Origin: Kiritimatiellales bacterium
GTDB taxonomy: Bacteria > Verrucomicrobiota > Kiritimatiellia > Kiritimatiellales > Pontiellaceae
Length of the DNA: 32,684 nucleotides
Direction: 5' to 3'
Assembly (NCBI GenBank): GCA_030630445.1
Contig: DAOVNC010000002.1
Location: forward strand, 1-32,684
Part shown: one piece after another, positions 4,284 to 28,022 of the stretch
Position numbering within the stretch: the first letter of the stretch is position 1
Layout of the letters: every line of letters starts with the position of its first letter
The notes under the pieces: model-generated
Told to the model about the DNA's origin: nothing
Seen by the model: only the letters and a program-made list of their open reading frames with translations
Databases searched by the model: none
Made by a program: the position numbers and the translations under genes

Positions 4284-5606
4284 TTACACCACCCATGGTT
4301 TCCGGTGCGGGAAGTCGAGCATGCGGTTGGCTTCGTCGTCCCCGATAAACCGTTCGGCCTTTGGATCCCACTTGAGTTTTCTGCCGAGCTTCATGGCAAT
4401 GTGATGGATCACGCAGACGCTATTGGAGCGGTGCCCGGCTTCGACGGGGTTGCACGGATCCTTGCGGGTGCGCATGCTACGCAGGAAGTCGGCCTCGTGG
4501 TTTTTGCTTTCGTAGAGGTGGATTCCATCGTCGGGAATCTTTTCGCGGAAGATGGCGCGGTCGGGGGCCTTGAATCCGCCGCGATCCACCCAGATCCAGC
4601 CATCGGAGCCAATGAATTTCACGCCGGGATTTCCGTTATGCGAAACCATCTTGACGCCATTGGCATACATCGCTTCGGCTTGGTAGCCGACATGGACATC
4701 GAAGAGCCCGCGTTTGGGAAAGTCGGCGGTGGCTTTAATCTCCACCGGGCCGGAGGTGGTGTCGAGGCCAAGCCCCCACTGGGCAATATCGTACATGTGC
4801 GCGCCCCATCCAGTGATCATGCCGCGGCAGTACGCTTCGATCTGCAGCCAGCCGGGCCGCGAGAATCCTTTTTGCGGATGAACCCCTCGAACGGCATAGG
4901 GAACCTCTGGTGCTGGACCGATCCACATGTCGTAGTCGAGGTTGGTGGGTACGGGCGACTGCGCCGGATCGCCGGTGCCGTGGTCGGTCGGCACCACTAC
5001 CTCGATCTCCTGGAGCTTTCCGATGAAGCCGTTGCGCACCAGTTCGCAGGTCTTGCGGAAATAGATGCTCGAACGCTGCTGCGCGCCGGTCTGCAAAATC
5101 ACCTTGTTGCGCCGAACGGCCTCGACCAATTTCTGGCCCTCGACGATGGAATAGGTCAGCGGTTTCTGGAGGTAGATATCCTTTTTTGCGTTGGCCGCCG
5201 CAATGGCGTTGACGGCATGCTGATGATCCGGCGTGGCAATGATTACGCCGTCGATATCCGGCGAGGCCAGTAGCTTGCGGAAATCCTGGTAGACCTTGAC
5301 GTCAACCGTTATGCCCTTGTCCGCATATTTCTTTTCCAAATCCTTTTTGGCCTGCTGGGCGCGGTTGAGGTCGACATCGCACACGGCCGTGATGCGGGCG
5401 TTGATGCCTTTGTCCGCCCCGCAGCTCACCATCGCAAACATATTGCTGCGTCCCATGCGCCCCGAGCCGATGCAACCAATGCGCAGCACCTGCTCCGCTC
5501 CCAGCACCCCCGAGGGAAGGATGAACGGTGCGGCGGCGACTCCGGCCGAAATGTTTAGGAACGTATTTCGTGAAAGCGTTGTGCTGTTTTTCATTCTATT
5601 TTTCAT
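4284..5606 (-). CDS. Exported Gfo/Idh/MocA family oxidoreductase
   Basis: Start MKNRMKNSTTLSRNTFLNISAGVAAAPFILPSGVLGAEQVLRIGCIGSGRMGRSN: signal-like N-terminus then Rossmann GCIGSGRMG, AVCDVD, IATPDHQHAVNAIAAANAKKDIYLQKPLTYSIVEG. ORF-track start at 5756 is probably too far upstream. Confidence 0.92.
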   Translation of the reverse strand: MKNRMKNSTTLSRNTFLNISAGVAAAPFILPSGVLGAEQVLRIGCIGSGRMGRSNMFAMVSCGADKGINARITAVCDVDLNRAQQAKKDLEKKYADKGITVDVKVYQDFRKLLASPDIDGVIIATPDHQHAVNAIAAANAKKDIYLQKPLTYSIVEGQKLVEAVRRNKVILQTGAQQRSSIYFRKTCELVRNGFIGKLQEIEVVVPTDHGTGDPAQSPVPTNLDYDMWIGPAPEVPYAVRGVHPQKGFSRPGWLQIEAYCRGMITGWGAHMYDIAQWGLGLDTTSGPVEIKATADFPKRGLFDVHVGYQAEAMYANGVKMVSHNGNPGVKFIGSDGWIWVDRGGFKAPDRAIFREKIPDDGIHLYESKNHEADFLRSMRTRKDPCNPVEAGHRSNSVCVIHHIAMKLGRKLKWDPKAERFIGDDEANRMLDFPHRKPWVV

Positions 5607-6552
5607 TCTCATACTCCTTCCATAGGCGTTTAGCCTGTTCTTTGCTGATTTTTCCATCATAGACAAACATGCGGTAGCGGCGGGTGTATTTTTTCCCCGG
5701 CTCGAATTTCCACGGTTTTTCCTGCACCGGATTAAGGTTAACGAATATTGCGCCATTGTGCTGCTGCTTGTCCCAAGTGCGCAGCATTTCCGGATGGTCG
5801 CGGTTGTCCGGATGCCCCATCAGCAGCACCCCGGCGGTTCCACCGTCCGGCGTGGCGCCCTGTATGCGCGTCCAGTCGGCGCGGGTGAAGTTTGCTGTGG
5901 ACCGATCCTTGCCCTCACTGGTCAATATGGTGCTGGTGTCCTTGTTCCACGATGCCGCGCCACGGTAGCCAAATCCGCTGTAGCGATATGGGGAGACTTC
6001 CACCGGATGCTCCGTTGCGCAACGGTGGGTGATCTCTATATCAAGGTAGTAGCCATTGGCTGCCGATTTCTTGAAGCCGGTAATGCGCACGCTGGTTTCT
6101 TCGTTCAACACCACCAGCGGCCCACCGGGTGCGGTGCGGTCAATATAGTCACTTTCCGAAACGAACCCGTTGTCCAGTACCGTCGCCTGGCGTCCTTGGA
6201 TCAGTCCTTTGCCCTTTTGCAACTCCCAGCAGACGATCTTGCGGCCATCCACCTCGATGTATTTCCACGGCCACCAAACCCCGAAATGATGCAAATGGTC
6301 CTTCGGCTGCAAATCCGTTACCGCAAAGCCCGACGGCGTTCTGAGCGGGTGGATGAAATTGCTGCCCTTGAACGCATCCCCGCCCTTCGGGTTTTGCATG
6401 GGCAAAACCTGATAGCCCAGCAATTCTTGTCCGTCGTGTCCGATGGTTAGCCGCTTCCCGTCGTTTTGAATCTCCAGTGCGGTTCCGGCCTGCACTGCGA
6501 TGTGGGCGAGCAAAATGCCGGAAATTAAAACCGCTCGATTCAATGTCTTCAT
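5596..6552 (-). CDS. DUF6807/PmoA family protein, secreted
   Basis: Signal peptide MKTLNRAVLISGILLAHIAVQAG; FIHPLRTPSGFAVTDLQPKDHLHHFGVWWPWKYIEVDGRKIVCWELQ motif typical of the family. Overlaps the next gene's start. Confidence 0.85.
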   Translation of the reverse strand: MKTLNRAVLISGILLAHIAVQAGTALEIQNDGKRLTIGHDGQELLGYQVLPMQNPKGGDAFKGSNFIHPLRTPSGFAVTDLQPKDHLHHFGVWWPWKYIEVDGRKIVCWELQKGKGLIQGRQATVLDNGFVSESDYIDRTAPGGPLVVLNEETSVRITGFKKSAANGYYLDIEITHRCATEHPVEVSPYRYSGFGYRGAASWNKDTSTILTSEGKDRSTANFTRADWTRIQGATPDGGTAGVLLMGHPDNRDHPEMLRTWDKQQHNGAIFVNLNPVQEKPWKFEPGKKYTRRYRMFVYDGKISKEQAKRLWKEYENEK

Positions 6553-6580
6553 GCAAGCCTCTGTTTTCGGGACTGGGTCT

Positions 6581-7528
6581 CTATTTTATCGGGGAATCAT
6601 CGCACGGCAGGTCCCCGAGCGCGTACTGGATGCCGTCGAGGACAAACTGAAGCATGGCGGCGGTTTCGTAGCTTTCGGGTTGGTGCGAAGGCCCGCAGTA
6701 GAAAACCCGGCCCTTGCCATATCCCTTGATCCATGCCACATAGCGGACCTCGCCCGCGACTTTGGGGTTTTTCCGGGTCTGTTCATCCAGCTTGCCCACA
6801 TTCATTTCCAGAAGCGGGCGGAAGTTCTTTTTGGCATAGGCGTTCTTGAAGAGGTAGGGCTCGTCGTCGTGGATGAAACCCTTGCCGTGGAAGCCTGCCG
6901 CCAAGGGGTGGTCGGGGTCGACCAGGTCGAGCGTCACGCTTTGCCGTTTGGGGTGGAAATCAAAACTTCCACCCATCATTTCGCTGAATTCCGGCGAGTT
7001 GTTCTGGACGGCGATGGCGCCGTGCAGGGCGACCAGCCCTTTCCCGGTGCGCACAAAATCGAGCAGGCTCTGCTCCAGTTCCGCAGCCCGTTTGTTCCGT
7101 TCCACCTCCGGGGTATCGGCGAGCACGTCCAGAAACATATTGCGGTATTCCCTCTTCGGGCAGGTATTGTTCAGCACCACCGCATCGAACGTCTTGAGCT
7201 TTTCCGCCGAAAACATTTCGATATCGTTGCTCTCCACCACCGTGTACGCACCGGACTTGGTTCCCAGCACCTTGACCACTTCCGACGCGTGCGGAATCAC
7301 TTTATGCTTAAATCCGGTGGCGAGGGAAAACAGTAGAATCCGCCGCGGTGCGCCGGGTTGGACCGTCGCCTTGGCCGGGGCCAGTTCCGTGATTTTTGCG
7401 ACCCACTCCGGCGTCGGCGGAACGATATTATCCGAAGCGCCCGGTGCCGTTGTATATTCTTGTGCCGTCAAATTGATTGCCACTCCCATGCAGAGCAAGC
7501 CTGCCTGGATCCGGTTCGGTTTATTCAT
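6581..7528 (-). CDS. ThuA-domain protein, secreted
   Basis: RRILLFSLATGFKHKVIPHASEVVKVLG...DAVVLNNTC...GKGLVALHGAIAV...FSEMMGGSFDFHP...HPLAAGF...DDEPYLFKN is the ThuA-like (trehalose utilisation) pattern. Confidence 0.9.
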   Translation of the reverse strand: MNKPNRIQAGLLCMGVAINLTAQEYTTAPGASDNIVPPTPEWVAKITELAPAKATVQPGAPRRILLFSLATGFKHKVIPHASEVVKVLGTKSGAYTVVESNDIEMFSAEKLKTFDAVVLNNTCPKREYRNMFLDVLADTPEVERNKRAAELEQSLLDFVRTGKGLVALHGAIAVQNNSPEFSEMMGGSFDFHPKRQSVTLDLVDPDHPLAAGFHGKGFIHDDEPYLFKNAYAKKNFRPLLEMNVGKLDEQTRKNPKVAGEVRYVAWIKGYGKGRVFYCGPSHQPESYETAAMLQFVLDGIQYALGDLPCDDSPIK

Positions 7529-7592: not shown

Positions 7593-9926
7593 TCAAAGGT
7601 TTGCAGTCCCGCCTTCAGGTGGGTTGCTGGTTGCTGAATAGGGCCCGATTCGCTCAATCGGAATAGGGTGCCAAGGAACGAGTTTTGTTTTGATCTCTTC
7701 CAGGGATTTACCATGGAACGTCTTGTCGCCATTGCGGTTGGAAAACGAAATGGCATGTCTGACATTGCCCATGACACCCGTGCCCAAGCGCAGGTTGTCG
7801 ACGAGATAATTATGGTTGTCATTACCGTTGAGAAGATCCTTAACCATAGGATACTTTTTCTGCCAGGCTTCTGATTCCCAGGGGGTTTCCGCAAGCATTT
7901 TCTTGGAGTTGGAGTGCCCGGTGATGCATTGCTGCCAGTCTTTGCCTGTCGTGGATCGCCCGGTAAATGCTTTATGCCAGTCGATAATAATATTGCCTTC
8001 GACATAGTTATCGGTTCCCTGGTTGAACTGGACGGCTCCAAAGCCATGATCCGACCCTTTGCGGAAGATATTCTCACACACCATGAAGCCACTTATATAG
8101 TCGTCGTGACGAACGGCCGCCGCACCATAATGCTTGTCATTGTTGACGATTTGGTTGAAATCATTCCAGCGAATAATATTCCCGCGATACAGTGGATTCG
8201 CCCACATATCGATGGCGCCTTGGTCGCCGGATTCGTAGACACATCTATGGAAGTAGTTCAGTTCGATCAAAGCGTCGCAGGCTTCCACGCGAATGGCACT
8301 GCTCGGGATATCTACAAAGGAGTTGTATCGAACTTTCAAGCCCATCCCCTCAAGCAATACGGCCGGAGTATAGGTGCGGTCAATACGGGATAAGTTGGAT
8401 ATTCTACAGTTTTCAATAACGGAATTGCCGGGAATCAATTTCTTCCAATCACCCGCCAGAAGATCAATAGCTCCGCGCCCCATGCTGTTGATCTTGCAGG
8501 AATGCACGAGATGCCGTTTCCCACCATGGATTTGGATGCCCATACCGGAACAATCCTGGATATCCAATCCGCTCAGGAAAACATCAGACGTGTTTGCAAT
8601 GATCAAAGCATCACCCCTCACATAGTTGATCTTCAGATTCCGAATATGAAGGTTGGAACATCCGGTTGCCGTGATTGGAGTGTTGTATGATGAAAGGATA
8701 CACTTCGATGGGTCAAAATCATTTGGAGGCAGGTAGAAAATCAATCCTCTTTTTGCGTCAAGATACCATTCTCCAGGTTGGTCAATTTCGCATAGTGCGT
8801 TTACAACACACCCAATTCTCCTATTAAATCCATATCGGTTGACGGGAGGCACCAAGTTGATTTTCCCATTGGATTCAATCGATGCAACCTTTTCATACGC
8901 ATCCGCCCAGTCGTTGCCCCAGTATCCATACAACCAAAGATTTTCCTCTTTGGCCCAATTATCGGATCGGGGATCCTTCTTCTTCTTCGGAACTTCATTT
9001 GCCGCAATTCGGATAAGTTTGTCGTTCGGCCAACGAGCCATGGTTTGAGGCTCACCGTTGTAAAAGAGTTCGGGGACATTAAAGGTTTTGAAGCGGGCAT
9101 GTATGCCTTCGGCCCGTTTGCTGGAAAATCCGCCCAAAACAAGTTCGGCCATGTTTTTGATGCCGTGGTCTTTCAGGTTGCAGACCAAGACATCGCCACG
9201 GATCGAAGCGGGAAGACGGTTGAGAATTTCCTTTTCGGCAACCTTTTTCCACGTCTTCAACACCGTTCCTCCAGTCAGCGTGGCAGGTCTTGCAGGATTT
9301 TCTGAACGAATAACCAAGGGGCTGCCATTTGTTCCTGCATCATCCGCAGTTAGCTTAACCGTTTCTTTGACATGGTAGGTTCCCGTGGAAAGAATAATTT
9401 CAATAGCCCCCGGAGCCGCGGTCGTTCGGTGTTTCCGTGCTAGTTCAATTGCTTTCTTGAGTGTCCCGACGGGTTTGCTTTTTGTTCCCTCACCACCCAC
9501 TGCTCCGGCTTTCACGTAAACAGACGCCTTCACCGGTCCAATGGCTGGAATTGCGGTTCGCTGAAGACCGGGATGCGGTTCTCCAGCGATAACGGCTCTC
9601 ATTTCTTTTGCGGCGAGTGCCTGATGTTCCGGGATATAGTCCAGCGTATTCAATAGATCCAGAGTCTTTAGGCTGTCGGCATTATTGCCAACTGCCAGTT
9701 GTGCTTGCGCAAGTCGCATAATGAATAGGGAATGGAATGGCTTATGCGTTGGAGGGAGCGGGTTCACTAATTCCTTGTAGGGAGGTATCGCTTTCCCTGG
9801 AGAAGAGTTCTGCCATGCGGCATCAGCCTTGAGTAGTTTTGATTCAACACTTTCCGGCACCTCGGCCTGGGCGTATCCAAGCGGCAGACCTGTCATCATA
9901 ATCAGGGATAATAGGAGCTGTTTCAT
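7593..9926 (-). CDS. Right-handed parallel beta-helix protein (putative polysaccharide-active enzyme)
   Basis: 777 aa, signal peptide MKQLLLSLIMMTGLPLGYAQA; TLKKAIELARKH...IILSTGTYHVKETVKL start of helix, LFYNGEPQTMARWPND motif, and NSxIENCRISNLSR-type repeats. Confidence 0.85.
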   Translation of the reverse strand: MKQLLLSLIMMTGLPLGYAQAEVPESVESKLLKADAAWQNSSPGKAIPPYKELVNPLPPTHKPFHSLFIMRLAQAQLAVGNNADSLKTLDLLNTLDYIPEHQALAAKEMRAVIAGEPHPGLQRTAIPAIGPVKASVYVKAGAVGGEGTKSKPVGTLKKAIELARKHRTTAAPGAIEIILSTGTYHVKETVKLTADDAGTNGSPLVIRSENPARPATLTGGTVLKTWKKVAEKEILNRLPASIRGDVLVCNLKDHGIKNMAELVLGGFSSKRAEGIHARFKTFNVPELFYNGEPQTMARWPNDKLIRIAANEVPKKKKDPRSDNWAKEENLWLYGYWGNDWADAYEKVASIESNGKINLVPPVNRYGFNRRIGCVVNALCEIDQPGEWYLDAKRGLIFYLPPNDFDPSKCILSSYNTPITATGCSNLHIRNLKINYVRGDALIIANTSDVFLSGLDIQDCSGMGIQIHGGKRHLVHSCKINSMGRGAIDLLAGDWKKLIPGNSVIENCRISNLSRIDRTYTPAVLLEGMGLKVRYNSFVDIPSSAIRVEACDALIELNYFHRCVYESGDQGAIDMWANPLYRGNIIRWNDFNQIVNNDKHYGAAAVRHDDYISGFMVCENIFRKGSDHGFGAVQFNQGTDNYVEGNIIIDWHKAFTGRSTTGKDWQQCITGHSNSKKMLAETPWESEAWQKKYPMVKDLLNGNDNHNYLVDNLRLGTGVMGNVRHAISFSNRNGDKTFHGKSLEEIKTKLVPWHPIPIERIGPYSATSNPPEGGTANL

Positions 9927-10043: not shown

Positions 10044-13874
<3,831 letters not shown>

Positions 13875-14027: not shown

Positions 14028-14320
14028 CTATGATTTTGCCCCGGACTTGATTCGGTAGTGCCCCGTTATCGGGAAGTCAAAGAGGCGGTTCTCCTCTTTG
14101 GTGCCAGCTCCAATGTTGTGAATAACGAGGGGGATTCCGCTGGATGTTTTCTTGTTGCTCACGACCATGATGTGCGGCCTGCCGCCGACCGTGCAGGTAA
14201 CTAGATCGCCCGGAAGGTCGTCTTCCGTCTTCTTGCCCGCATCGATGGAATAGCCGCTTCGCTCGAAATAGGTTTTCAGGTTGGGAACGCGGCGGGGTGC
14301 ATGGGCGATCTGATTTTTTT
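14028..14320 (-). pseudogene. C-terminal remnant of a DUF1287 family gene
   Basis: Minus strand reads ...RRVPNLKTYFERSGYSIDAGKKTEDDLPGDLVTCTVGGRPHIMVVSNKKTSSGIPLVIHNIGAGTKEENRLFDFPITGHYRIKSGAKS*, matching the DUF1287 C-terminal pattern (RRVPNL..FF, GD.V, PHI.IVS, P.IIHNIG.G..EE..LF...ITGHYR). No N-terminal half or start codon. Confidence 0.8.
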
Positions 14321-14428
14321 GAGAAAAAATGTCAGGATGAGGAGGCGGGGGGAATGTACTTATATATGACGGTTCGATTTTATCGTTCCTCCGGTTTGCC
14401 TATGAACGTATCAAAACAAGGGAGTGAG

Positions 14429-15919
14429 ATGAAAAAGTATGTACGTAGTTCAATTGCATTAGCCCTCGCTGTGGGCGCTTTTATTGCGACCAACAGCTAT
14501 GCGGCCCTGAGTGTGACCAATGGCGGTTTTGGAACGGTCAACCGAAATGGAGGGATCGTGGACGGGGGCGGATGGTTCGAAAGCGGAACCGCAAACTGGG
14601 TCGAAGGAACTTGGACGAGTGCCTCCACCCCAAACCCTGACGATGGAGGAGATACCTTCCTGCTTCTGATGGATGGAGGCAGCGCGGCCATGGGCTATAT
14701 CTACCAGAGTCTCGGTACGATCACGGCAGAGGAAATTGCTCTGGGATCACTGCCTGTCACTGCTGACTTTGCTGAAAAGAACGATGGATCAAGCAATGAC
14801 GTTACATTCGATTTTTATGTCGGCGCATTCCCCGGAGCAGCGACCGGCGTCGATATCGATGCAAACCTTACCAGTTTTACCAACATTACTTTGGGTGCAG
14901 TTGCTCAGGGGTTGACACCCGAGGCCGGCGATACCTCCCGGACGAATCAGGTCGCGATTGGCAGCATTGACGTTAGCGGCTTGATCGTAGATGACGAAGT
15001 TTGGTTGCGCATCGCCGAATCCAGAGACCCCGCCTTTACCTCCGGCGACCTCATGTTGGATAACCTTTTCATCGGCGAATATGTGGAACCTCCGTTCGAA
15101 CCGGCCACCAACAACCTCAGCTTCGAAAATCCGGATGTGGATCCCGGAGCGTACTCCAACGGATCCCCGCCGGAGTGGACTTTCAGTGGTGGCGGCGTCG
15201 AGCATGTTAATGATGACCGTTTTGGCGGCAACAACCCGCTTCCCGCTCCAGGAGATGGCGACCAAGTTGCTTATATTAACCTTGGCTTCGGCACAAACAA
15301 CACCGCTTGGGCCACTTCGGGGGCTATTACCCAACTGGTCGAGAGAGCCAGCTATACCTTGACCGTTGCCATTGGAGAACGTGCTGATGGCGACAAGAGT
15401 CCTAATGGTAGTATTGGCCTGTGGGTGGGTGGAAATCCGGTGGGCACGTTCACCTCCTACGACGGCACGTCCCTTGCCGACGGTACTTTTACCGATATGG
15501 TTTATACCTATACCGCACCGGGTGCGGGCGATCCCCTGATTGGCCAAGACGTGCAGGTTCGGATGGAGTTTAGCTCCATCAACGATACCAATGCCCATCA
15601 GCAGGCGCAGTTTGACAATGTCCGCCTGGAAATTGTTGGTGCCGAAGCAATCCCGGCAACCATCATTTCCTTCACCCAAGAGGGCGATAACATGAGAATG
15701 GTTATCGATGCTCCGTCCGCAGCGAACAAATACTACCCCAAAGCCACCGCGAATCTCGTGATTCCGGATTGGGATGGCGTTCCCCACTCGGATGATGGCG
15801 TGAATCCCTTTGTGACCACCAACCTTTCCTATTCCACAGCGGATGGGACCGGGACCAACGAAGTGATTTATGTGCAAGCCGACGATGCCGCGAAATTCTT
15901 TGGCATCGGCGGAGAGTAA
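14429..15919 (+). CDS. Secreted protein with two beta-sandwich-like modules (shared module plus a second related domain)
   Basis: Likely start MKKYVRSSIALALAVGAFIATNSYA (signal peptide). Module LSVTNGGFGTVNRNGGIVDGGGWFESGTANWVEGTWTS...LMLDNLFIG, then NNLSFENPDVDPGAYSNGSPPEWTFSGGG.....AQFDNVRLEI. Confidence 0.85.
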   Translation: MKKYVRSSIALALAVGAFIATNSYAALSVTNGGFGTVNRNGGIVDGGGWFESGTANWVEGTWTSASTPNPDDGGDTFLLLMDGGSAAMGYIYQSLGTITAEEIALGSLPVTADFAEKNDGSSNDVTFDFYVGAFPGAATGVDIDANLTSFTNITLGAVAQGLTPEAGDTSRTNQVAIGSIDVSGLIVDDEVWLRIAESRDPAFTSGDLMLDNLFIGEYVEPPFEPATNNLSFENPDVDPGAYSNGSPPEWTFSGGGVEHVNDDRFGGNNPLPAPGDGDQVAYINLGFGTNNTAWATSGAITQLVERASYTLTVAIGERADGDKSPNGSIGLWVGGNPVGTFTSYDGTSLADGTFTDMVYTYTAPGAGDPLIGQDVQVRMEFSSINDTNAHQQAQFDNVRLEIVGAEAIPATIISFTQEGDNMRMVIDAPSAANKYYPKATANLVIPDWDGVPHSDDGVNPFVTTNLSYSTADGTGTNEVIYVQADDAAKFFGIGGE

Positions 15920-16009
15920 AATCGAATAAGAGGATACTGGGCTGGGAAAATGATTCGTTGCAGGTGCAACCTATCCGAAAGCTCGTTAACAAGAAGGAAG
16001 GAATACAAG

Positions 16010-16741
16010 ATGAGAAGGAATACAATACATTCAGTCACGGCAGCTCTCGCTGTAAGCGTTCTGTTTGCGCTTAACAGCCACGCTACCTTGTCGGTAAGCA
16101 ACGGAGGCTTCGGATCCAACAATCAGAACGGTGGCACCGTGGACGGAGGGCTATGGTTCGAAAGCGGAACCGCAAACTGGGTCGAAGGAAGTTGGACGAG
16201 TGCCGGCACTCCAAACCCTGACGACGGTAACGATACCATCCTGCTTCTGATGGATGGCGGCGGCGCGAGCATAGGCTACATCTACCAAAGCCTCGGCACG
16301 GTCGATGCGGCGGAAATTGCGCTGGGATCACTTCAGCTCACTTCCGATTTTGCTGAAAAAGCGGACGGAACAGGAGCCAATACTGCCGTGATCGACTTCT
16401 ATGTCGGCTCCTTTACAGGAGGCAATGGAACAGACATCAACGCAAGCCTTAGTAGTGTACTTACCATCAATGCTACTGCCGCAGCCCAAGGCTTGTCTGT
16501 TGGCGGAGGAGTGAACGCTCGTAATAATGGCGTAGTTGTTGGTGCCCTCGACATCACTGGCCTGAATCCGGGAGACAACGTTTGGTTGCGCATCGGCGAA
16601 TCCAGACCTGGTGGACAAACCAGCGGCGACCTCATGATGGACAACGTTACTGTTACCGCCATTCCTGAACCTGCCACGCTCGGCATGGTTGCGCTGTTTG
16701 GCGGCGGAATCCTGTTCATCCGTCGCAAGCTGATGATCTAG
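16010..16741 (+). CDS. PEP-CTERM sorting domain protein carrying the shared module
   Basis: Signal peptide MRRNTIHSVTAALAVSVLFALNSHA; module LSVSNGGFGSNNQNGGTVDGGLWFESGTANWVEGSWTS; C-terminus AIPEPATLGMVALFGGGILFIRRKLMI is a PEP-CTERM tail. Confidence 0.93.
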   Translation: MRRNTIHSVTAALAVSVLFALNSHATLSVSNGGFGSNNQNGGTVDGGLWFESGTANWVEGSWTSAGTPNPDDGNDTILLLMDGGGASIGYIYQSLGTVDAAEIALGSLQLTSDFAEKADGTGANTAVIDFYVGSFTGGNGTDINASLSSVLTINATAAAQGLSVGGGVNARNNGVVVGALDITGLNPGDNVWLRIGESRPGGQTSGDLMMDNVTVTAIPEPATLGMVALFGGGILFIRRKLMI

Positions 16742-16781: not shown

Positions 16782-16809
16782 AAACCCCGTCTCTTGGCGG
16801 GGTTTTTTT
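16782..16809 (+). terminator. Rho-independent terminator after the PEP-CTERM gene
   Basis: AAACCCCG-TCTCTTGG-CGGGGTTT followed by T run. Confidence 0.85.
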
Positions 16810-16817
16810 AACCGATT

Positions 16818-19800
16818 ATGAAAAACATATTCTTGCTGACCCTCTTGACCGCCACTTCGCTTTCTGCGCAGACCGTGATCAACGTCGCCGATCATGGAGC
16901 CTTTCCAGACGACGGCGGTGCATATAGCGCCGACCACTCTGCGCGTGCTGGCGACGATACCCAGCCGTGCAAAGATGCGATCGCTGCGGCCAAAGCAGTC
17001 GGCGGCCCCGTCACCTTGCTGATTCCACCGGGTACGTATGATTTCTACCCCAATAATGCCACCTCGCGCATTTGCTTTACGAGCAATAGCACCGAGAGCT
17101 CCTCGGACGGCACCAAAACCATCGCGATTGACATTGTGGATGTCGATGATCTGACGATTTCCGGCATGGGCGCGACAATGATGATGCGTGGAAAGATGAC
17201 CATGCTCGTCGCCGAGCAGTGCGACAACCTTACCCTTCAAGGGCTGACCTTCGATTTCAAACGCCCGACGATGTCGGAGATCACCTGTGTGGAAGTAGGA
17301 GGAAACTACTGGATCGGCGCTGTGCACCAGGACTCGGACTACGCGATTGTCGGTTCAACGATCAAATGGATCGGCGAAGGCTGGACCCTCTACCACAACA
17401 TGACCCAGCACTACGATCCCGAGTCGGAAACCACATGGCGCGGAGGGGATCCCCTGTCGATCCTCACATCCATCCAGGACCAGGGGAACCGGCGCTTGCG
17501 TTTCAATGGAACGGCAAGTCTGGGCAATGCGGTGGTGGGACGCACCTACCAATTCCGCAACACGACCCGCAACGCCGTGGCCATGTGGTTCAACCACTGC
17601 ACGGATGTTCTCATGCAGGATGTGACGGTGCGGGCGCTGCATGGCTTCGGCATTCTCGGCCAATTCTCCGAAAACATCACCATCGAACGCCTCAAGGTCG
17701 AACCCGATCCGGAGAGCGGCCGCACCAATGCCTCCGCGGCGGACGTTACCCATTTCTCGGGGTGCAAAGGACTCGTCCGCATCGTGGATAGCGTGCTGAG
17801 TGCCGCCCACGATGACGCCATGAACGTGCATGGCACCCACCTTGAGATTAAGGAGATGCCCGCCGCCAACCAGGCTCGGGTGCGGTTCGGGCAACACCAG
17901 TCGTGGGGGTTTCAAGCCTATTTTCCCGGGGATAATATTGAATTTATCGATGAGAGAACGCTACTACCCCATGGTAGTGCAATGGTGACGGCAGTGACCA
18001 TGTTGGCGGATCCCAAGGAGCAATTGCTTTCTTTTGATCAGAATATCCCTGGCACGGTCGCGAACGGTGACGTCATCGAAGATGTGTCATGGACCCCTTC
18101 CGTAGAGCTTATCAATTGCGACATCAAGCAGATCCCGACACGCGGTATTTTGCTGACCACCCGCCGGCCGATCCTGATTCAAGGCAACCGCTTCTTCCGT
18201 ACTCAAATGCACGCTATTTTAATCGAGGATGATGCGAACGGCTGGTTCGAGTCGGGGCGGGTGCTGGATCTTGCCGTACGTGGAAATGTCTTCTATGAAT
18301 GCGGCGAACAGGTCATCAAGGTCGACCCGGTAAACAGTATTCACGCGGGCTCCGTGCACGAGAACCTTCGCTTTGAAGATAACGAGTTTGTGATGAAGGG
18401 CACCGGGGCCTTCCGGCTGGCATCTTGCGGAAACGTGACGATCCGCAACAATCACTTCCGGATGCGCAACGGCAGCTCGACTCCGGTGGAGAGCATGACG
18501 TCGCAAAGCAGTGTCGATGGCATCTCCTTCTCTGGAAACATCTCGGAACCGGCGAACAATCCCGCCATCGAGCCAGACAACGGTGACTTTGAACTCCCGG
18601 GCGTAGGTAGTACGGCAACGCAGGCGGGCGTGACCAACTGGCTTGTTTCGCCCGGAGGGGCAACGAAGGGCAGCACATTGACCGAAAGCGATAGCGCGGC
18701 CTCCTACACCGCATCGGATACCGCCTTCATTCCAATGGGCGGGGTGCTGGTGCAGCGGGTGGGCTACTATGATCCCGATCAGGGCTCAAGCCTGAACTGG
18801 TCGCTGCGACAGACGACGCAGGTCTCTCCTTCCGTAGGTTCCGGCGCGGTGCGGGTGGCGCTTTTTCAGGGAGACGCCCGCTTTCCCGAAGCGAACGAAG
18901 TAGACCCCGAAGCGGAAGGCCTTGAACAGATTGGAGCCGAGACCTTGAGCACCAGTCTGGGATCGTTGCGTCTTTCACGAGTGGTGCGCGGCAATATTCC
19001 CTTGGACGGGGTAGGGGCCGGGGCGGAACTCTGGATACGCATCGAGGCGGCGAACCAAAATGCCACCTTGGATGATGTTCAAATCAACACGGCGGACGCC
19101 CCCTATCAGCCAGGCTTTACCCAGTGGATCGCGGATGAAAACATTCCGGCGGGCTCCCACTCCCCGGACTCGGATCTCGACAACGACGAAGTGGCGCTAT
19201 TGTTCGAATACGCGGTCGGGGGCCGGGATCCGCTTTTTCCGGAGCCGGAATCGGTGGTTGGGCTTGGAGATCTCCCGAACGGGGTGGGGTTTTTCTATTT
19301 ACCATCCATCCGGGACGATGTGGAAATCCGGCCTGGATATCGAACCAACCTCGTGTCTGGTGGATGGTCGCTTCTGGAGGAATCAACCCCCGGATTTACC
19401 ATAACGCCCGGGAGTCCCGTATCGATTGTTCCTGACCTCGCAGTATACAATCAGGTTTTTTGGAGGGCGGAAGCGACTCTGATTGACCCGCCCCCCGAAC
19501 CGATCGACCCCTTGCAGGTCACCAATGGCGAGTTTGGAACCGTTAACGTCAACGCGACGTATGTGTCCGGTGGCGGATGGTTCGAAAGCTCATCGACTGC
19601 TTGGGTCGAAGGATCTTGGCCGGGGAGCACTGCCAGTGATACGCCAATGGTTCTCCTGATGGATAATCTGGGTGATGGATCCTATGTATACCAAAGCCTC
19701 GGCACCGTGGGTACAAATACAAACCTCACCATAATTGCAGATTTTATCGAAAAATTCGATGGGAACACCAACGATGCGCGGTTTGATATCTATTCAGGAA

Positions 19801-20072
19801 GCTTCGCCGGAGCCGCCGATGGGAATGACATCTCCTCTGCCGGACTTACCCTTGAAGGCACATATATTTTGAATGCCGCTCAACAGGGATTGACCGCAGC
19901 CGCCGGCAACAACAGCAAATCATACGCCGTCACGGTTGGCACTTTGGATATCTCCGGCCTCGCAGGCACTGAACTTTGGATTCGAATCACTGACGCGACG
20001 GATGGAAGTGATGATTCTGGAAGTGGCGGCGATTTAATGATCGATAATCTCCGTCTGGGGGCGACACCCTGA
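16818..20072 (+). CDS. GH110-like right-handed beta-helix glycosidase (putative alpha-galactosidase) with C-terminal shared module
   Basis: Signal peptide MKNIFLLTLLTATSLSAQ; VINVADHGAFPDDG...DDTQPCKDAIAAAKAVGGPVTLLIPPGTYDFYP, VDSVLSAAHDDAMNVHGTHLEI, IPTRGILLTTRRPILIQGNRFFRTQMHAILIEDDANGWFESG. C-terminal LQVTNGEFGTVNVNATYVSGGGWFESSSTAWVEGSW...LMIDNLRLG. Confidence 0.82.
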   Translation: MKNIFLLTLLTATSLSAQTVINVADHGAFPDDGGAYSADHSARAGDDTQPCKDAIAAAKAVGGPVTLLIPPGTYDFYPNNATSRICFTSNSTESSSDGTKTIAIDIVDVDDLTISGMGATMMMRGKMTMLVAEQCDNLTLQGLTFDFKRPTMSEITCVEVGGNYWIGAVHQDSDYAIVGSTIKWIGEGWTLYHNMTQHYDPESETTWRGGDPLSILTSIQDQGNRRLRFNGTASLGNAVVGRTYQFRNTTRNAVAMWFNHCTDVLMQDVTVRALHGFGILGQFSENITIERLKVEPDPESGRTNASAADVTHFSGCKGLVRIVDSVLSAAHDDAMNVHGTHLEIKEMPAANQARVRFGQHQSWGFQAYFPGDNIEFIDERTLLPHGSAMVTAVTMLADPKEQLLSFDQNIPGTVANGDVIEDVSWTPSVELINCDIKQIPTRGILLTTRRPILIQGNRFFRTQMHAILIEDDANGWFESGRVLDLAVRGNVFYECGEQVIKVDPVNSIHAGSVHENLRFEDNEFVMKGTGAFRLASCGNVTIRNNHFRMRNGSSTPVESMTSQSSVDGISFSGNISEPANNPAIEPDNGDFELPGVGSTATQAGVTNWLVSPGGATKGSTLTESDSAASYTASDTAFIPMGGVLVQRVGYYDPDQGSSLNWSLRQTTQVSPSVGSGAVRVALFQGDARFPEANEVDPEAEGLEQIGAETLSTSLGSLRLSRVVRGNIPLDGVGAGAELWIRIEAANQNATLDDVQINTADAPYQPGFTQWIADENIPAGSHSPDSDLDNDEVALLFEYAVGGRDPLFPEPESVVGLGDLPNGVGFFYLPSIRDDVEIRPGYRTNLVSGGWSLLEESTPGFTITPGSPVSIVPDLAVYNQVFWRAEATLIDPPPEPIDPLQVTNGEFGTVNVNATYVSGGGWFESSSTAWVEGSWPGSTASDTPMVLLMDNLGDGSYVYQSLGTVGTNTNLTIIADFIEKFDGNTNDARFDIYSGSFAGAADGNDISSAGLTLEGTYILNAAQQGLTAAAGNNSKSYAVTVGTLDISGLAGTELWIRITDATDGSDDSGSGGDLMIDNLRLGATP

Positions 20073-20316: not shown

Positions 20317-20991
20317 ATGACGAAAAGGGAAACAACAGAACTTACACGATCCAACGGTCTTCCTCAAACGGAGCAGAGCTCTGTCATGGAGGAGTTGCCG
20401 GGAAGTGGAGATCGGGCCGTTTCCCTGGCTAGCAGTCTTGCCGTCGGCGGTGCCAGCAACGAAACCGTCGTATTTACTGAGTATTACCTGGAAACCCGCC
20501 CTTCTCTCCGAGCCTATCTCACCTCGTTTATTCACGACCATGCCGCGGTTGAAGACTGCCTTCAGGAAACGTGTTTGGTGCTTTGGAAGAAAAAAGAAGC
20601 CCATTGGACACTAGAGGATTTTCGCAAGGTGGCCTTTACGTGTGCTCGCTTCAAGGCACTGAGTTGGTTGAAAAAGAATAAGCCCGCCTCACACCTTTCG
20701 TTCTCTCCGGAGATTGCGCAAAAACTGGCACTCAAAGCGGCGGAGACGGTTGGGGCCGATGGAGACACGCAGTCCGAGCGTATGGAGGCTTTGCTGAAGT
20801 GTCTTGAAGCGCTTCCCGGGGAGCAGCGGCACCTTATCGAGGTGCGCTATGACCCTGCGGAATCAGAAGACCTTGTCCAGATGGCAAAAAAAAAGAACCG
20901 GACGCTTTCGGCCTTGTATAAACAACTCGAACGCACCCGCACTGCTCTTAGGAACTGTGTTAAAATGCAACTAACCCGGTGTAAGGCATGA
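20317..20991 (+). CDS. RNA polymerase sigma factor, ECF-like sigma-70 family
   Basis: YYLETRPSLRAYLTSFIHDHAAVEDCLQETCLVLWKKKEAHWTLEDFRKVAFTCARFKALSWLKKNK (region 2) and ALPGEQRHLIEVRYDPAES...MAKKKNRTLSALYKQLERTRTALRNCV (region 4 HTH). Confidence 0.9.
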   Translation: MTKRETTELTRSNGLPQTEQSSVMEELPGSGDRAVSLASSLAVGGASNETVVFTEYYLETRPSLRAYLTSFIHDHAAVEDCLQETCLVLWKKKEAHWTLEDFRKVAFTCARFKALSWLKKNKPASHLSFSPEIAQKLALKAAETVGADGDTQSERMEALLKCLEALPGEQRHLIEVRYDPAESEDLVQMAKKKNRTLSALYKQLERTRTALRNCVKMQLTRCKA

Positions 20992-22097
20992 AACAGGAAA
21001 TTACCAAAAAACCCGAACTGCCACCCGATGAAGAACTCGCCATGCTGGTGGATGGCTTTCTTGATGGAAACTTGAGCGAAGCCCAGCGCGATGCATTGGA
21101 AAAGCGCCTCTTGTCGGACGAAAGGGACCAGGCGTATTATGCTGACAGAGTCCGGTTTCACGCTGAACTACAGGAAGTGATGCAACCCATTCGGGTTGAG
21201 GTGCTGCAGAAACGGCATCTGGTATTCGAGCGGAAACAAGGCTTGCCCCGTTTTATGGCCCGTATGAGCCAGGTAGTCCGAATAGGGAATCCGGTCTCTG
21301 GAAGCTTTCTTGAACTCCCGCCCGATCTCATTGAGCTGTCGACCTTGCGCCGCAGGTTGTGGATCATCGGCGGCGCATTGCTACTTCTGGTGCTTGGGCT
21401 TGTTGCTCTGGCCGTTTGGCAGGCGAAGCGGGCTGCGATTGTTGATCCTGTTATATTGGCACTGAAAAACGAGGGATTTGAACAGGTCGACTTGATTGAT
21501 GACGAGGATGCCCTCAGCTATACGATCTTGAATTGGCAGGACTTCTTTCTTTCCCGGGATGTTAGCACGTGTGATCTTGCCCGTTTTTCCCAGGGACGTT
21601 ATACCGCCCATTCTGGAAACAATGTGGCACAGATCCGACCTTTGGGCTACCTGACCCAGATCCTTCTCTACAGTGATGGGTCGCCATTGCTTGCCCAAAA
21701 GGGTCTGCACATACGCGTCAGGGGCTGGGCATTGATTGAAGGAGATAATAAGCGCGAAGTGCCGCTTCGTATTGACCTTCGGGTCGTCCAAGAGGTTAAA
21801 CCCGAGATGAGGCAATACGAGCCGAGCCATGCAGAGGCCAGGCTTGGCGGGAAGGGGTGGCAGGAGTTTTGCGTTGACCTTCCATTGCCGACTGATTCGT
21901 TGGTGATGATTCCCAGCGATGTAGAACCGGGGGATACCAACCGCGCCCTGCTGGATGTCTCGGGCAAGGTGCTCAATCTATCGATTCATAATCGTCAAAC
22001 ACTCCCCCCGGTGATCTACTTGGATGATTTATCGATTGAAATAGTTTCTGAGGAGTCCGCTGAAAAACACTCTGAACCAGAATCGCCTACAGAATAG
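20988..22097 (+). CDS. Single-pass membrane anti-sigma-like protein with beta-sandwich-like ectodomain
   Basis: ATGA overlap with the sigma gene; cytoplasmic LPPDEELAMLVDGFLDGNLSEAQRDALEKRLLSDERDQAYYADRVRFHAEL, TM LWIIGGALLLLVLGLVALAVW, then ectodomain ending VIYLDDLSIEIVSEES. Confidence 0.8.
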   Translation: MKQEITKKPELPPDEELAMLVDGFLDGNLSEAQRDALEKRLLSDERDQAYYADRVRFHAELQEVMQPIRVEVLQKRHLVFERKQGLPRFMARMSQVVRIGNPVSGSFLELPPDLIELSTLRRRLWIIGGALLLLVLGLVALAVWQAKRAAIVDPVILALKNEGFEQVDLIDDEDALSYTILNWQDFFLSRDVSTCDLARFSQGRYTAHSGNNVAQIRPLGYLTQILLYSDGSPLLAQKGLHIRVRGWALIEGDNKREVPLRIDLRVVQEVKPEMRQYEPSHAEARLGGKGWQEFCVDLPLPTDSLVMIPSDVEPGDTNRALLDVSGKVLNLSIHNRQTLPPVIYLDDLSIEIVSEESAEKHSEPESPTE

Positions 22098-23836: not shown

Positions 23837-24987
23837 TGAACAAGAAAAGGATAACGGCCATTGGAGGCGCCGGGCTGGCTGTTGTGTTGGTGGCGACAGG
23901 AGCCGTGGTTGGAGGAATGAAGAGGGCAAAGGCGACGCGCGATGCCGAGGCGAGGTTTGCCCTGCAACGGTCGGCGCGTCCGGTTGCGCTGGAACGGGTG
24001 ACGGCGGTTCGTCTGGAACAAAAGCGGGGATATCCGGGCATTGTGCGGGCTTCCGAGGAATCTGCGTTGTCGTTTCGGGTGGGCGGCCCGCTGACGAAGG
24101 TGGACGTTGTGCCGGGTCGGCCCGTGCCCCAAGGAACCTTGCTGATGCAGATTGATCCGCGCGATTTCGAGGACCGGATCCGTGCGCTGGAGGCGCAGTT
24201 GGCGGGGGTGCAGGCTGTACAGAAAAATGCAAAGCAGGAGTATGACCGTGCCGCTGGGTTGTTCGATGAAAAGGTGATTTCCCAGACTGATTATGATCGG
24301 GCCAGCAGTGCTTTCGACTCGGCGGATGCGGCGGTTGAGACGCTGGATTCCCAGTTGCAGATTGCACGGCACAGCCTGAAAGACACCTCGTTGTTCGCAC
24401 CCTATTCCGGCACGGTTTCCGAGCAGTTGGTTGAAAATCACGAAATGGTTAAATCGGGGGAGGTCGTGCTTGAATTTCATAATATCCAATGGCTGGAAGT
24501 GGCGGTGAGCGTGCCGGAAAACGAAATTGTTCGCCGGAATATGACTGGCGACAAAGCGGTGTGGGTTGGGTTTCCCGCCCTGCCCGGTAAAAAGATTGAA
24601 GCCAAGTTGAAGGAGTGGAGCTCTGCGGCCGATCCGATTACGCGCACGTATGCGGTGACGTTTGCCTTTGAGGCACCGGCGGACGTTAAGGTGCTGCCCG
24701 GAATGTCGGCCAAGGTGACTTGGACGGAAGAGCCACCTGCGGAAGCGCAGTTGACGGTTCCGGTTTCGGCGTTGAGTTCCGATGCGGAGGGACATTCCGA
24801 CCTTTGGATCTATGAGGATGGCCATGCCGTGCGGCGGCGGGTTCGGACGGGTGCGCTGGCGGGGGCTTCCCGGGTGGTGGTGCTGGAGGGGCTGGCCGAA
24901 GGCGAGCAGGTGGTGGTGGCCGGGAACCGGCTGATCACAGAGGGGCAGGCGCTTCACTCCTCGCTTGAGCAAAAGGCCGACCGATGA
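23833..24987 (+). CDS. Efflux RND transporter periplasmic adaptor subunit
   Basis: VALERVTAVRLEQKRGYPGIVRASEESALSFRVGGPLTKVDVVPGRPVPQGTLLMQIDPRDFE...LFAPYSGTVSEQLVENHEMV; ATGA overlap with tetR. Confidence 0.95.
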   Translation: MMNKKRITAIGGAGLAVVLVATGAVVGGMKRAKATRDAEARFALQRSARPVALERVTAVRLEQKRGYPGIVRASEESALSFRVGGPLTKVDVVPGRPVPQGTLLMQIDPRDFEDRIRALEAQLAGVQAVQKNAKQEYDRAAGLFDEKVISQTDYDRASSAFDSADAAVETLDSQLQIARHSLKDTSLFAPYSGTVSEQLVENHEMVKSGEVVLEFHNIQWLEVAVSVPENEIVRRNMTGDKAVWVGFPALPGKKIEAKLKEWSSAADPITRTYAVTFAFEAPADVKVLPGMSAKVTWTEEPPAEAQLTVPVSALSSDAEGHSDLWIYEDGHAVRRRVRTGALAGASRVVVLEGLAEGEQVVVAGNRLITEGQALHSSLEQKADR

Positions 24988-27900
24988 ATCCTGCAAATTT
25001 TGCGCTCAAGAATCGTACGGTGATGGTGGTGATGACCATCCTGCTTATAGGGGCCGGCTTCCTATCCTACCAGAAATTGGGCCGCCTAGAATATCCGGAC
25101 TTTACCATCAAGACCGCGCTGGTGGTCACGCCGTATCCCGGTGCCATCCCGACGGAGGTGGAGGAGGAAGTGACCGACCCGATCGAGGAGGCCATTCAAT
25201 CGATGGGGCAGCTGAAGGAGGTCTATTCGATTTCGCAGGAGGGGCTTTCCTTTGTGTTTGTGGAAATTCAGGATCGTTTTAAATCCAAAGAGATTCCGCA
25301 AATCTGGGACGAATTGCGCCGGAAGGTGAACGATGTTCAAGGGCAACTTCCGCCCGGGGCCGGCCCGACGATCGTGAATGATGATTTTGGCGATGTGTAC
25401 GGGGTCTTTTTTGCGCTCACGGATGGGGGGCATTCCTATGCCGAACTCAAAGCGTACGCCGACGAACTCAAGACGGGGCTGCTGGCGTGCGACGATGTGG
25501 CCAAGGTTGGTTTCTGGGGGGTGCAGCAGGAGATGATTTATGTCGAGTTTGAACGCGCCCGTCTAACTGAGCTGGGGCTTTCGCCCGAAATGATTGCCGG
25601 AACCCTCCAGACCCAAAACGCGGTTGCGCCCAGTGGAAAGGTAGAGGTGGATGGCAACTACCTGCGGATTACCCCGACCGGCAGTTTGTCGAGCGAAGAG
25701 GCGATTTCAAATTTAATGGTGGGTCGTGCGGGTGGCTTGGTACGGCTGGGCGATGTGGCGACGGTCAGCCGAGGCTATTTGGAACCGCCGCGCAATAGGA
25801 TGATCTTTAACGGCCAGCCTTCCTTGGGGATTGGCATCTCCACGGTGGCGGGCGGAAACGTGATTACCATGGGGAAGTCCGTTCGTGAAAAACTGGAGGA
25901 ACTCGATTCCGACCGACCGTCCGGGATGGAGTTGCATTCCATTTACTACCAGAGCGAAATGGTCACCGAGTCGGTGAACGGTTTTATCCTCAACCTGTTG
26001 ATGGCGGTGTTGATTGTTGTGGTTTTGCTGATGTTCTTTATGGGATGGCAGAGCGGGTTGCTGATCGGCGTGGTGCTGTTGCTGACCATTTGCGGAACCT
26101 TTGTCGGCATGCAGCTGCTGGATATTGATTTGCAGAAGGTCTCGCTGGGTGCGCTAATTCTGGCGCTCGGCATGCTGGTGGACAACGCTATTGTGGTGGC
26201 GGACGGAATCCTGGTTCGGGTGGAGCGCGGCGAGAGCCGCGAAGAGGCCGCCGCCGAAGTGGTTCGCGATACACAGTGGCCTTTGTTCGGTGCCACGCTG
26301 GTGGCCATTCTGGCCTTTTCCGCCATCGGGTTTGCTCCCGGCAAGGTTGGCGAATTTTGTATTTCCCTTTTTTCCGTAATGGCGCTTTCGCTTTCGATCA
26401 GCTGGGTGCTGGCCGTTACGGTGACGCCGTTGTTTTGCGTCTGGTTCCTCAAGATACCGGATGTCCATGGTGCCGACCCGTATGACAAGCCGATGTTTTG
26501 GAACTACCGCAGAATACTGCACATGGCAACGCACCATCGAATCATCACTATCGCGGTCACGGTGCTTCTGCTGCTTTCCGCGTTGTTCGGTTTCCGGTTC
26601 GTTCCGCAGTCGTTTTTCCCCGGCTCCACGAACCCGTATTTCTATATCGATTATTGGCGACCCAGCGGGACGCACATCGGCCAGACGGCGGCCGATCTGG
26701 AGAAGATAGATGCCTATGTACGGACGCTGGAGGGCGTGGAGAATATCAGCGGCTTTATCGGCGAGGGCGCCTTGCGGTTCGTGCTGACCTATAACTATGA
26801 AATCTCCAATTCCAGCTATGGACAGCTTCTAGTGGAGGTCGATGACTACCGCCGGATTCCCGAATACATGGATCAGGTCAATGCCTACCTAAAGGAAAAC
26901 TATCCCGATGCCGAACCCTATTGCAGCAGGATGCCGACCGGCCCTTCGATGGCATTCTTGGTGGAGGCCCGCTTTACCGGTCCCGACAAGACGGTGCTAA
27001 AGCAGTTGGGCGACCGGGCGCTTGCGGTGATGCGCGCCGAACCCAATGCAAAGGATGTTCGTCTCGACTGGCGCCAGCAAGTTCAGGTGCTTCGACCCGG
27101 ATTCTCGGAATCCCAGGCGCGGCGCAGCGGGGTCAGCCGGGCCGATCTTGCCCAGTCGCTTCAACTGAATTTCAACGGCGTTGCGGCGGGGCTATATCGC
27201 GAAGGCACGGAACTGATTTCCATCATGTTCCGTCCGCCGGAGGCCGAGCGGGCGACCGTCGATAATTTTGACGATGTCCAGGTTTGGAGTTCGCTTAATA
27301 AACGTTTCATCCCGATTCGCCAGGTGGTTTCCGGACTGGAGAGCGAGTGGGAGTGGCCTCTGGTTCCGAGGCGCGATCGGCTTAATTCCATCACGGCGCG
27401 TTGCAATCCCATTGTGGGGCTGGCCGATCCGCTACGCCTCAAAATCAAGAAACAGATCGAGGCGATCGGGCTGCCGCCGGGATACCGTTTTAAATGGGTC
27501 GGCGAATTCAAGGAGTCGGAGGAAGCGAAGGCACCCTTGAAAACTACATTTCCGATCTGTTTCCTCGGTATGTTTATCATCGTTGTGTGGTTGTTTAATT
27601 CGGTTCGCCGACCGCTGATCATCATCATGACCGTGCCGCTGTCCATTATCGGCGTAACGATGGCGCTTCTCTTGACCGGGCTCTCTTTCGGGTTTATGGC
27701 GATCCTTGGTTATCTCGGCCTCTCGGGCATGCTGATCAAGAACGCCATTGTGCTGATCGATCAGATCGAGATGGAACTCTCGCAGGGCAAGGCACCCTAC
27801 AAGGCCATTCTCGACTCGTCGGTCAGCCGCATGCGCCCCGTACTGATGGCGGCGGGAACCACGATTCTCGGAATGGCGCCGCTCTTGCGCGATCCGCTCT

Positions 27901-28022
27901 ATTCCGGCATGGCCGTCACCATTATGGGCGGGCTGTTTGCGGGCACGTTCCTCACGCTGCTGATCGTGCCGGTGGTCTACACCATGGTCTATCGCATCCC
28001 CGTCAAAGCCGAACATGTTTAA
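24984..28022 (+). CDS. Efflux RND transporter permease subunit
   Basis: 1012 aa AcrB-like: TVMVVMTILLIGAGFLSYQKLGRLEYPDFTIKTALVVTPYPGAIPTEVEEEVTDPIEEAI...LILALGMLVDNAIVVADGI. Confidence 0.97.
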   Translation: MNPANFALKNRTVMVVMTILLIGAGFLSYQKLGRLEYPDFTIKTALVVTPYPGAIPTEVEEEVTDPIEEAIQSMGQLKEVYSISQEGLSFVFVEIQDRFKSKEIPQIWDELRRKVNDVQGQLPPGAGPTIVNDDFGDVYGVFFALTDGGHSYAELKAYADELKTGLLACDDVAKVGFWGVQQEMIYVEFERARLTELGLSPEMIAGTLQTQNAVAPSGKVEVDGNYLRITPTGSLSSEEAISNLMVGRAGGLVRLGDVATVSRGYLEPPRNRMIFNGQPSLGIGISTVAGGNVITMGKSVREKLEELDSDRPSGMELHSIYYQSEMVTESVNGFILNLLMAVLIVVVLLMFFMGWQSGLLIGVVLLLTICGTFVGMQLLDIDLQKVSLGALILALGMLVDNAIVVADGILVRVERGESREEAAAEVVRDTQWPLFGATLVAILAFSAIGFAPGKVGEFCISLFSVMALSLSISWVLAVTVTPLFCVWFLKIPDVHGADPYDKPMFWNYRRILHMATHHRIITIAVTVLLLLSALFGFRFVPQSFFPGSTNPYFYIDYWRPSGTHIGQTAADLEKIDAYVRTLEGVENISGFIGEGALRFVLTYNYEISNSSYGQLLVEVDDYRRIPEYMDQVNAYLKENYPDAEPYCSRMPTGPSMAFLVEARFTGPDKTVLKQLGDRALAVMRAEPNAKDVRLDWRQQVQVLRPGFSESQARRSGVSRADLAQSLQLNFNGVAAGLYREGTELISIMFRPPEAERATVDNFDDVQVWSSLNKRFIPIRQVVSGLESEWEWPLVPRRDRLNSITARCNPIVGLADPLRLKIKKQIEAIGLPPGYRFKWVGEFKESEEAKAPLKTTFPICFLGMFIIVVWLFNSVRRPLIIIMTVPLSIIGVTMALLLTGLSFGFMAILGYLGLSGMLIKNAIVLIDQIEMELSQGKAPYKAILDSSVSRMRPVLMAAGTTILGMAPLLRDPLYSGMAVTIMGGLFAGTFLTLLIVPVVYTMVYRIPVKAEHV

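Follow-up and report, generated by a model that had tools for sequence, protein, structure and literature searches.

A putative glycan-sensing sigma/anti-sigma gene pair in a Kiritimatiellales genome

The window considered here, 32,684 nucleotides from Kiritimatiellales bacterium (assembly GCA_030630445.1), is one entire contig (DAOVNC010000002.1) of a 472-contig draft genome. It carries two overlapping genes whose products, as sequence comparison supports, are an extracytoplasmic function (ECF) sigma factor and a single-pass membrane anti-sigma factor that would bind it. The outside part of the membrane protein is predicted to be a β sandwich like those of carbohydrate-binding module (CBM) families 4, 16, and 22. 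The pair is probably a one-step transmembrane glycan-sensing switch, in which this CBM-like ectodomain would gate release of the sigma factor. Its parts are as follows.

20317-20991, + strand: ECF sigma factor, 224 residues (Pfam and NCBIfam profile matches, tree)
20988-22097, + strand: putative membrane anti-sigma factor, 369 residues (open reading frame [ORF]; homologues directly 3' of sigma genes)
20988-20991, + strand: ATGA, the sigma stop overlapping the anti-sigma start (the -4 spacing recurs in many relatives)
20988-21359, + strand: cytoplasmic part, residues 1-124, holding the putative anti-sigma domain; best conserved core at about 13-78
21360-21416, + strand: transmembrane helix, residues 125-143 (hydrophobic segment)
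21417-22094, + strand: ectodomain, residues 144-369, with the predicted β-sandwich core at about 158-353 (alignment, AlphaFold2, Foldseek)

The gene pair and its putative anti-sigma domain

The sigma factor combines an ECF-like size with a sigma-70 region 2 (PF04542, E 7e-7, above the Pfam cut-off) and the NCBIfam sigma70-ECF profile (TIGR02937, 49.7 bits, above cut-off). Its best profile is TIGR02989 (Sig-70_gvs1, the Rhodopirellula/Verrucomicrobium family; E 6e-32), at 110.7-111.3 bits, below the family cut-off of 124.55 bits. The N-terminus bears an extension of about 50 residues. Alignments to both NCBIfam profiles reach residue 214-215 and Pfam region 4 is not called; the orthologue in the nearest relative, genome G636, has a weak match to PF04545. 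An Rfam search gave no matches.

Both reading frames lie where a preliminary description of this DNA had placed them, with the ATGA overlap and the single membrane helix that it had described. The partner protein has one hydrophobic segment, immediately preceded by three K/R residues, and is therefore oriented N-in/C-out, with 124 residues in the cytoplasm and 226 outside. Both of its cysteines sit in the ectodomain. Thus, the N-terminal domain, having none, lacks a zinc motif, and a zf-HC2 match in the protein is sub-threshold (E 0.08). The protein has no significant sequence match in Pfam, NCBIfam, PHROGs, or the PDB, and the Pfam scan found no FecR domain (PF04773) in it.

Full-length homologues of the partner occur in one other Verrucomicrobiota family, which contains Rubritalea and which we take to lie near Akkermansiaceae of GTDB. 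Three were found in a sample of the phylum and 22 by a family-level profile search; these 22 are 27-54% identical to the window protein. A genome scan with the single window protein gave no match, and one with a close alignment gave one named relative, an uncultured Rubritalea (L143, a metagenome-assembled genome). Searches of 27 other genomes from the window's genus, taken to be Pontiella, and of 346 from its class gave no full-length homologue. In each of the 22 loci, a homologue of the sigma gene lies directly 5' of the anti-sigma homologue, often with a 4-base overlap. The partner gene thus follows an ECF sigma gene directly and is conserved with it as a unit, as for class I anti-sigma factors (ASDI).

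A profile of the N-terminal domain (residues 1-90) was run on 2,690 ORFs belonging to 93 loci that had no part in building it; two of these loci contain second copies of profile members. Down to weak E-values, nearly all of the matches are ORFs that directly follow a sigma gene, and among them are partners whose outside parts differ widely (FecR/LamG and others). The matches for which no sigma gene was listed are, in our reading, ORFs over-extended upstream by the simple ORF caller. The genomic context thus argues strongly that this domain, recurring almost solely in sigma partners, serves the entire sigma class as its anti-sigma domain and would bind the cognate sigma factor. The pairing proposed in the preliminary description is thus borne out both by the 22 paired loci and by the near confinement of this domain to sigma partners.

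The ectodomain

Residues conserved in the ectodomain include N161, F164-E165, W183-Q184, F187, G210, Q224, G246-W247, W291, and L345-D346-D347-L348; among these, N161, F164-E165, W183, F187, G246-W247, W291, and D346-D347 are strongly conserved. Sandwich folds of this kind often coordinate a structural calcium through an N-terminal Glu and a C-terminal Asp. About 17 residues separate the transmembrane helix from the ectodomain core. By sequence, no usable family assignment came from Pfam, NCBIfam, PHROGs, or the PDB, searched with phmmer and a two-row profile. The lone low E-value against the PDB came from a designed protein matched over 28 residues, and no stretch passes alone.

An AlphaFold2 model built from two rows, the window ectodomain and its Rubritalea homologue (47% identity), is all-β, with a mean pLDDT of 58.6 and a pTM of 0.63. 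Its top Foldseek matches in the PDB are CBM4 (1k42, 3p6b), CBM16 (2zey), and CBM22 (4xup) structures, at E 7e-5 to 1e-3 on this modest-confidence model, together with a porphyran-binding CBM (8xmz) and a GH51 enzyme (6zps; GH, glycoside hydrolase family). HpiC1-type proteins rank just below the CBMs, and the whole set spans E 1e-5 to 2e-3. As a control, the PEP-CTERM module found in neighboring genes was modeled from its three window copies. This model is also beta-rich (pLDDT 64, pTM 0.64), and its top matches include viral jelly rolls and meprins, with no cluster of CBM4/16/22 folds. The predicted structure thus supports a CBM4/16/22-like β sandwich at the level of fold.

The β sandwich anticipated in the preliminary description therefore stands, as a prediction, with CBMs as its nearest solved folds. 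The same account had linked the ectodomain to the adjacent secreted modules through a likeness between its xxLDDLSIEI ending and their LMxDNLxxG ending. That kinship was rejected: the likeness covers the last strand only, the two profiles, aligned to each other over 35 columns, reach a probability of just 2.9%, and the modules as modeled have other nearest folds.

The outside part varies among close relatives. One sigma clade (98 in the SH-like approximate likelihood ratio test, SH-aLRT) holds pairs that have the anti-sigma domain in common and differ in what lies outside. In loci L092, L093, and L142 the outside part is an unrelated domain of about 300 residues. In L094 it is a weakly HpiC1-like sandwich (PF22825, E 0.004), and a similar one occurs in L114 (E 0.1), which lies outside the tree. 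In L089 and L123 the C-terminus bears an extra domain with a weak likeness to DUF5077 (E 3e-4, below cut-off), which in L089 also matches CBM35_2 (E 0.13). Such a combination of variable outside and constant inside parts is as expected of a sensor, and these sequences suggest that the ectodomain is one. In three loci from the class of the window genome (L013, L022, L031), the outside part of the sigma partner, about 500 residues, resembles prenyltransferase/squalene-cyclase-type repeats by eye.

A glycan is a ligand that we infer for the ectodomain, which leaves room for a quite different role: general envelope stress would trigger proteolysis, the sandwich would be a cap over a juxtamembrane cleavage site, and the carbohydrate genes nearby would be bystanders. 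However, the exchange of ectodomains between close siblings of the sigma clade (L092/L093/L142, L094) fits sensors rather than a constant cap, and a block of enzyme genes has been kept beside the pair in two distant genomes. We regard the cap as improbable.

Neighboring genes and the proposed switch

Four genes upstream of the pair bear on its possible ligand.

16818-20072, + strand: secreted GH110 α-1,3-galactosidase with GLAA-B barrels and a C-terminal PEP-CTERM-type module (about 882-1084)
15950-16741, + strand: stand-alone PEP-CTERM module protein (Pfam; homologue in G636)
14297-15919, + strand: secreted protein with a PEP-CTERM-type module (about 45-266) followed by an HpiC1-like domain (272-445)
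10044-13874, - strand: GH2 LacZ-type β-galactosidase with an F5/8 type C domain (Pfam and NCBIfam)

Judged by its sequence, the product of 16818-20072 is a GH110 α-1,3-galactosidase with its catalytic Asp triad. It matches PF23764 above the Pfam cut-off, a solved α-galactosidase (8yk3, E 6e-83), and the named GH110 structures 7jw4 and 7jwf, and its Asp triad is spaced 23/24, as are the catalytic residues D321, D344, and D345 of PdGH110B (PMC7939477). Together, the GH110 and GH2 enzymes could act on alternating α/β galactans, such as carrageenan-type polymers. Three consecutive secreted genes each carry one copy of the PEP-CTERM-type module, about 200 residues long; the copies are 46-63% identical to each other, and one is joined to the HpiC1-like domain and one to GH110. 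At about 16785-16815 lies a terminator-like hairpin, ccccgtctcttggcgggg, with a T run behind it. The GH110 start codon (16818) is only a few bases past its end, which leaves little room for a promoter; possibly the hairpin is an attenuator, or the true GH110 start is further on.

The block recurs in G636, where GH110 (53%), the sigma factor, the anti-sigma factor (54%), the PEP-CTERM module (59-64%), and GH2 (42%) lie within about 11 kb. Only 28 bases separate the GH110 stop from the sigma start, the GH2 homologue is about 4 kb from the pair, and the homologue of the 15950-16741 protein is directly 3' of the anti-sigma gene. The location beside glycan enzymes that had been pointed out for the window thus holds there as well. 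In a survey of the family, the association was found in G636 and in a minority of loci, with GH97, GH43 with a ricin-B lectin, GH27, GH106, GH32, GH35, and GH2 among the neighbors, while large secreted proteins are what most often adjoin the pair.

These commonest neighbors, autotransporter-like PATR or PEP-CTERM proteins at 8 loci and ThuA/NPCBM/DUF7133 proteins at 7, would also fit an ectodomain that senses proteins which the cell itself secretes or bears on its surface (PEP-CTERM/autotransporter-like proteins or an envelope glycoprotein), as a checkpoint on envelope assembly or the cell surface. A PEP-CTERM protein is directly 3' of the anti-sigma gene in G636 and directly 5' of the sigma gene in L089. 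On the other hand, the NPCBM, GH97, GH43/ricin-B lectin, GH27, and GH110/GH2 neighbors indicate glycans, and the fold matches are CBMs rather than protein-binding domains. Sensing of own proteins is therefore rated unlikely, if somewhat less so than the cap.

The giant secreted protein adjoins the pair at L091, L124, L125, L126, L131, L138, and L139. The members scanned contain ThuA, NPCBM, DUF7133, and HEAT domains, some with cytochrome c, and the protein is a candidate regulon member. ThuA domains also adjoin the anti-sigma gene in several relatives. Within the window, consecutive genes for a GFO/IDH/MocA oxidoreductase, a DUF6807 protein, and a ThuA protein, the first two overlapping, occupy 4284-7528 (- strand), a row that resembles clusters for catabolism of 3-keto-sugars or sugar derivatives. 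A right-handed β-helix protein with a weak match to a GH141 insertion domain is encoded at 7593-9926 (- strand); the G636 locus also has a β-helix protein (L130, 11692-13806), to which tblastn found no match from the window protein. No TonB-dependent transporter was found among the window genes scanned.

For the glycan-sensing switch, we envisage the following course. The N-terminal domain would hold the ECF sigma factor inactive at the inner membrane while, in the periplasm, the ectodomain awaits a soluble piece of glycan. The ligand would most likely be an α-1,3/β-linked galactan oligosaccharide that enzymes like the neighboring GH110 and GH2 set free or process. Its binding, or its clearance, would change the ectodomain or expose the short juxtamembrane linker to proteolysis, and the freed sigma factor would transcribe its own operon together with the neighboring secreted enzyme and PEP-CTERM genes. 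How the sigma factor is released and which genes it serves are, like the galactan itself, parts of the scheme that we infer.

Several observations weigh against this scheme. Confidence in the ectodomain model is modest, given its two-row alignment, and residues 1-38 fall below a pLDDT of 50. The same sandwich is found in HpiC1 cyclases and in MAM domains, which also appear among the ectodomain matches, so the fold alone is no proof of sugar binding. A comparison of the N-terminal domain with solved anti-sigma structures detected no similarity. Glycan enzymes adjoin the pair in the minority of family loci noted above. Among the matches listed, there are at least 8 GH-domain matches in 60 near neighbors versus at least one GH and at least one polysaccharide lyase in 71 farther genes, but this comparison is soft: the choice of near genes favored large ones, and the G636 GH genes are in neither set. 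Co-transcription of GH110 and sigma in the window is not obvious, because 244 bases separate them. Word and dyad counts upstream of the sigma genes gave no shared promoter motif, none exceeding shuffled sequences, and the upstream regions of the candidate target genes have no long word in common.

The GH110-sigma-anti-sigma block looks laterally acquired into a native Pontiella-type contig, because the RND (resistance-nodulation-division) operon is native while GH110 and sigma have their affinities with the other family. The RND protein (24984-28022) is 72-75% identical to its counterparts in seven Pontiella-type genomes versus 46% in G636, and the operon (TetR, membrane fusion protein [MFP], RND, outer-membrane efflux protein [OEP]) is syntenic in 5 of 5 genus genomes checked. 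The window GH110, by contrast, is 54-58% identical to proteins of four genomes of the other family versus at most 34% (partial) within the genus. The window sigma factor nests with that of G636 inside the other family's clade (98 SH-aLRT), and grouping it with ten sigma factors of the genus was rejected (approximately unbiased test, p-AU 0.011, on a quick tree). For the GH2 gene, the relatives on the two sides are about equally close (44-46%).

The foreign position of the sigma factor, the lack of a homologue elsewhere in the genus and class, and the 472-contig state of the draft could also mean that the pair stems from chimerism or misbinning and is uninformative on Pontiella. This is very improbable: a misbinned contig was rejected on account of the native, syntenic TetR-MFP-RND-OEP operon on the same contig, and the biology of the pair is independent of its host.

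Verrucomicrobiota rank among the major degraders of algal polysaccharides, and many have large numbers of ECF sigma/membrane-partner pairs, but glycan sensing in them is little studied; the Pontiella literature checked does not mention sigma/anti-sigma control. A broader and more tentative proposal, possible although we would not call it probable, is that these bacteria use modular sensors. One anti-sigma domain, combined with exchangeable glycan-recognizing ectodomains (CBM4/16/22-like, HpiC1-like, DUF5077-like, LamG), would give each ECF sigma factor its own polysaccharide specificity. Sensor-enzyme cassettes would move between classes as self-regulated polysaccharide utilization units, here a galactan cassette passing from the Rubritalea-containing family into Pontiella. 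If true, the phylum as a whole would have in this system a counterpart to hybrid two-component systems and SusC/FecR circuits. The pair lends itself to testing. Its sensor domain is defined, there is a candidate regulon, and the candidate class of substrate is galactans, cleaved by GH110 and GH2; the natural ectodomain swaps on one anti-sigma domain would let specificity be assigned to the outside module.

Comparison with known systems

The closest known pairs are the TIGR02989 sigma factors with FecR/LamG partners of Planctomycetota and Verrucomicrobiota. The window pair is like them in sigma class by best profile match, in an N-terminal partner domain common at low similarity, and in gene order and overlap. 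It differs in that its sigma factor scores below the family cut-off and its partner has neither FecR nor LamG, with the predicted CBM4/16/22-like sandwich directly behind the transmembrane helix instead. A canonical TIGR02989-type sigma gene with a FecR/LamG partner lies 5 kb from the CBM-type pair in G636 (L130, 1779-3904, - strand), and the window's own genome has another canonical-looking pair with a LamG-type partner (L149).

SigI/RsgI of Clostridium thermocellum likewise joins a membrane anti-sigma factor with an outside sensor, which may be a CBM, GH, or PA14 domain (PMC12203970, PMC6056542), to the regulation of polysaccharide enzymes, and in RsgI a CBM sensor is coupled to a proteolytic cascade (PMC12203970). 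The preliminary description had held the window ectodomain to be different from those of RsgI. By fold it is CBM-like and so nearer in concept to RsgI sensors, but the difference stands for the rest of the pair: the sigma factor is of the ECF type, no match to the RsgI N-terminal domain was found in Pfam or NCBIfam, and the 17 or so residues between membrane and sensor leave no space for an autocleaving periplasmic domain. RsiV of Bacillus subtilis, a lysozyme receptor, binds its ligand directly through the anti-sigma ectodomain (PMC5014341). It is a precedent for direct ligand binding, with another type of ligand and no ectodomain similarity claimed. RsiV and RsgI thus serve as precedents for ligand binding and for a CBM sensor with proteolysis, and the window protein is assigned to neither family.

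In Bacteroides, ECF sigma/FecR systems with SusC-type TonB-dependent transducers control glycan genes across the envelope (reviewed in PMC10766802). They too unite an ECF sigma factor, a membrane anti-sigma factor, and glycan genes, but the window anti-sigma factor lacks FecR and carries the sensor-like fold itself. Actinobacterial ECF52 and ECF53 also couple ECF regulation to carbohydrate-binding or GH domains, a fusion that PMC10766802 predicts and does not itself validate; in these, the anti-sigma part and these domains are fused to the sigma factor, whereas here two genes are present. The nearest solved folds of the ectodomain remain CBM4, CBM16, CBM22, and the porphyran-binding CBM, with no sequence match that would assign it to a family. 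The pair is not a new kind of system but a specific example of an apparently little-studied class of Verrucomicrobiota signaling pairs.
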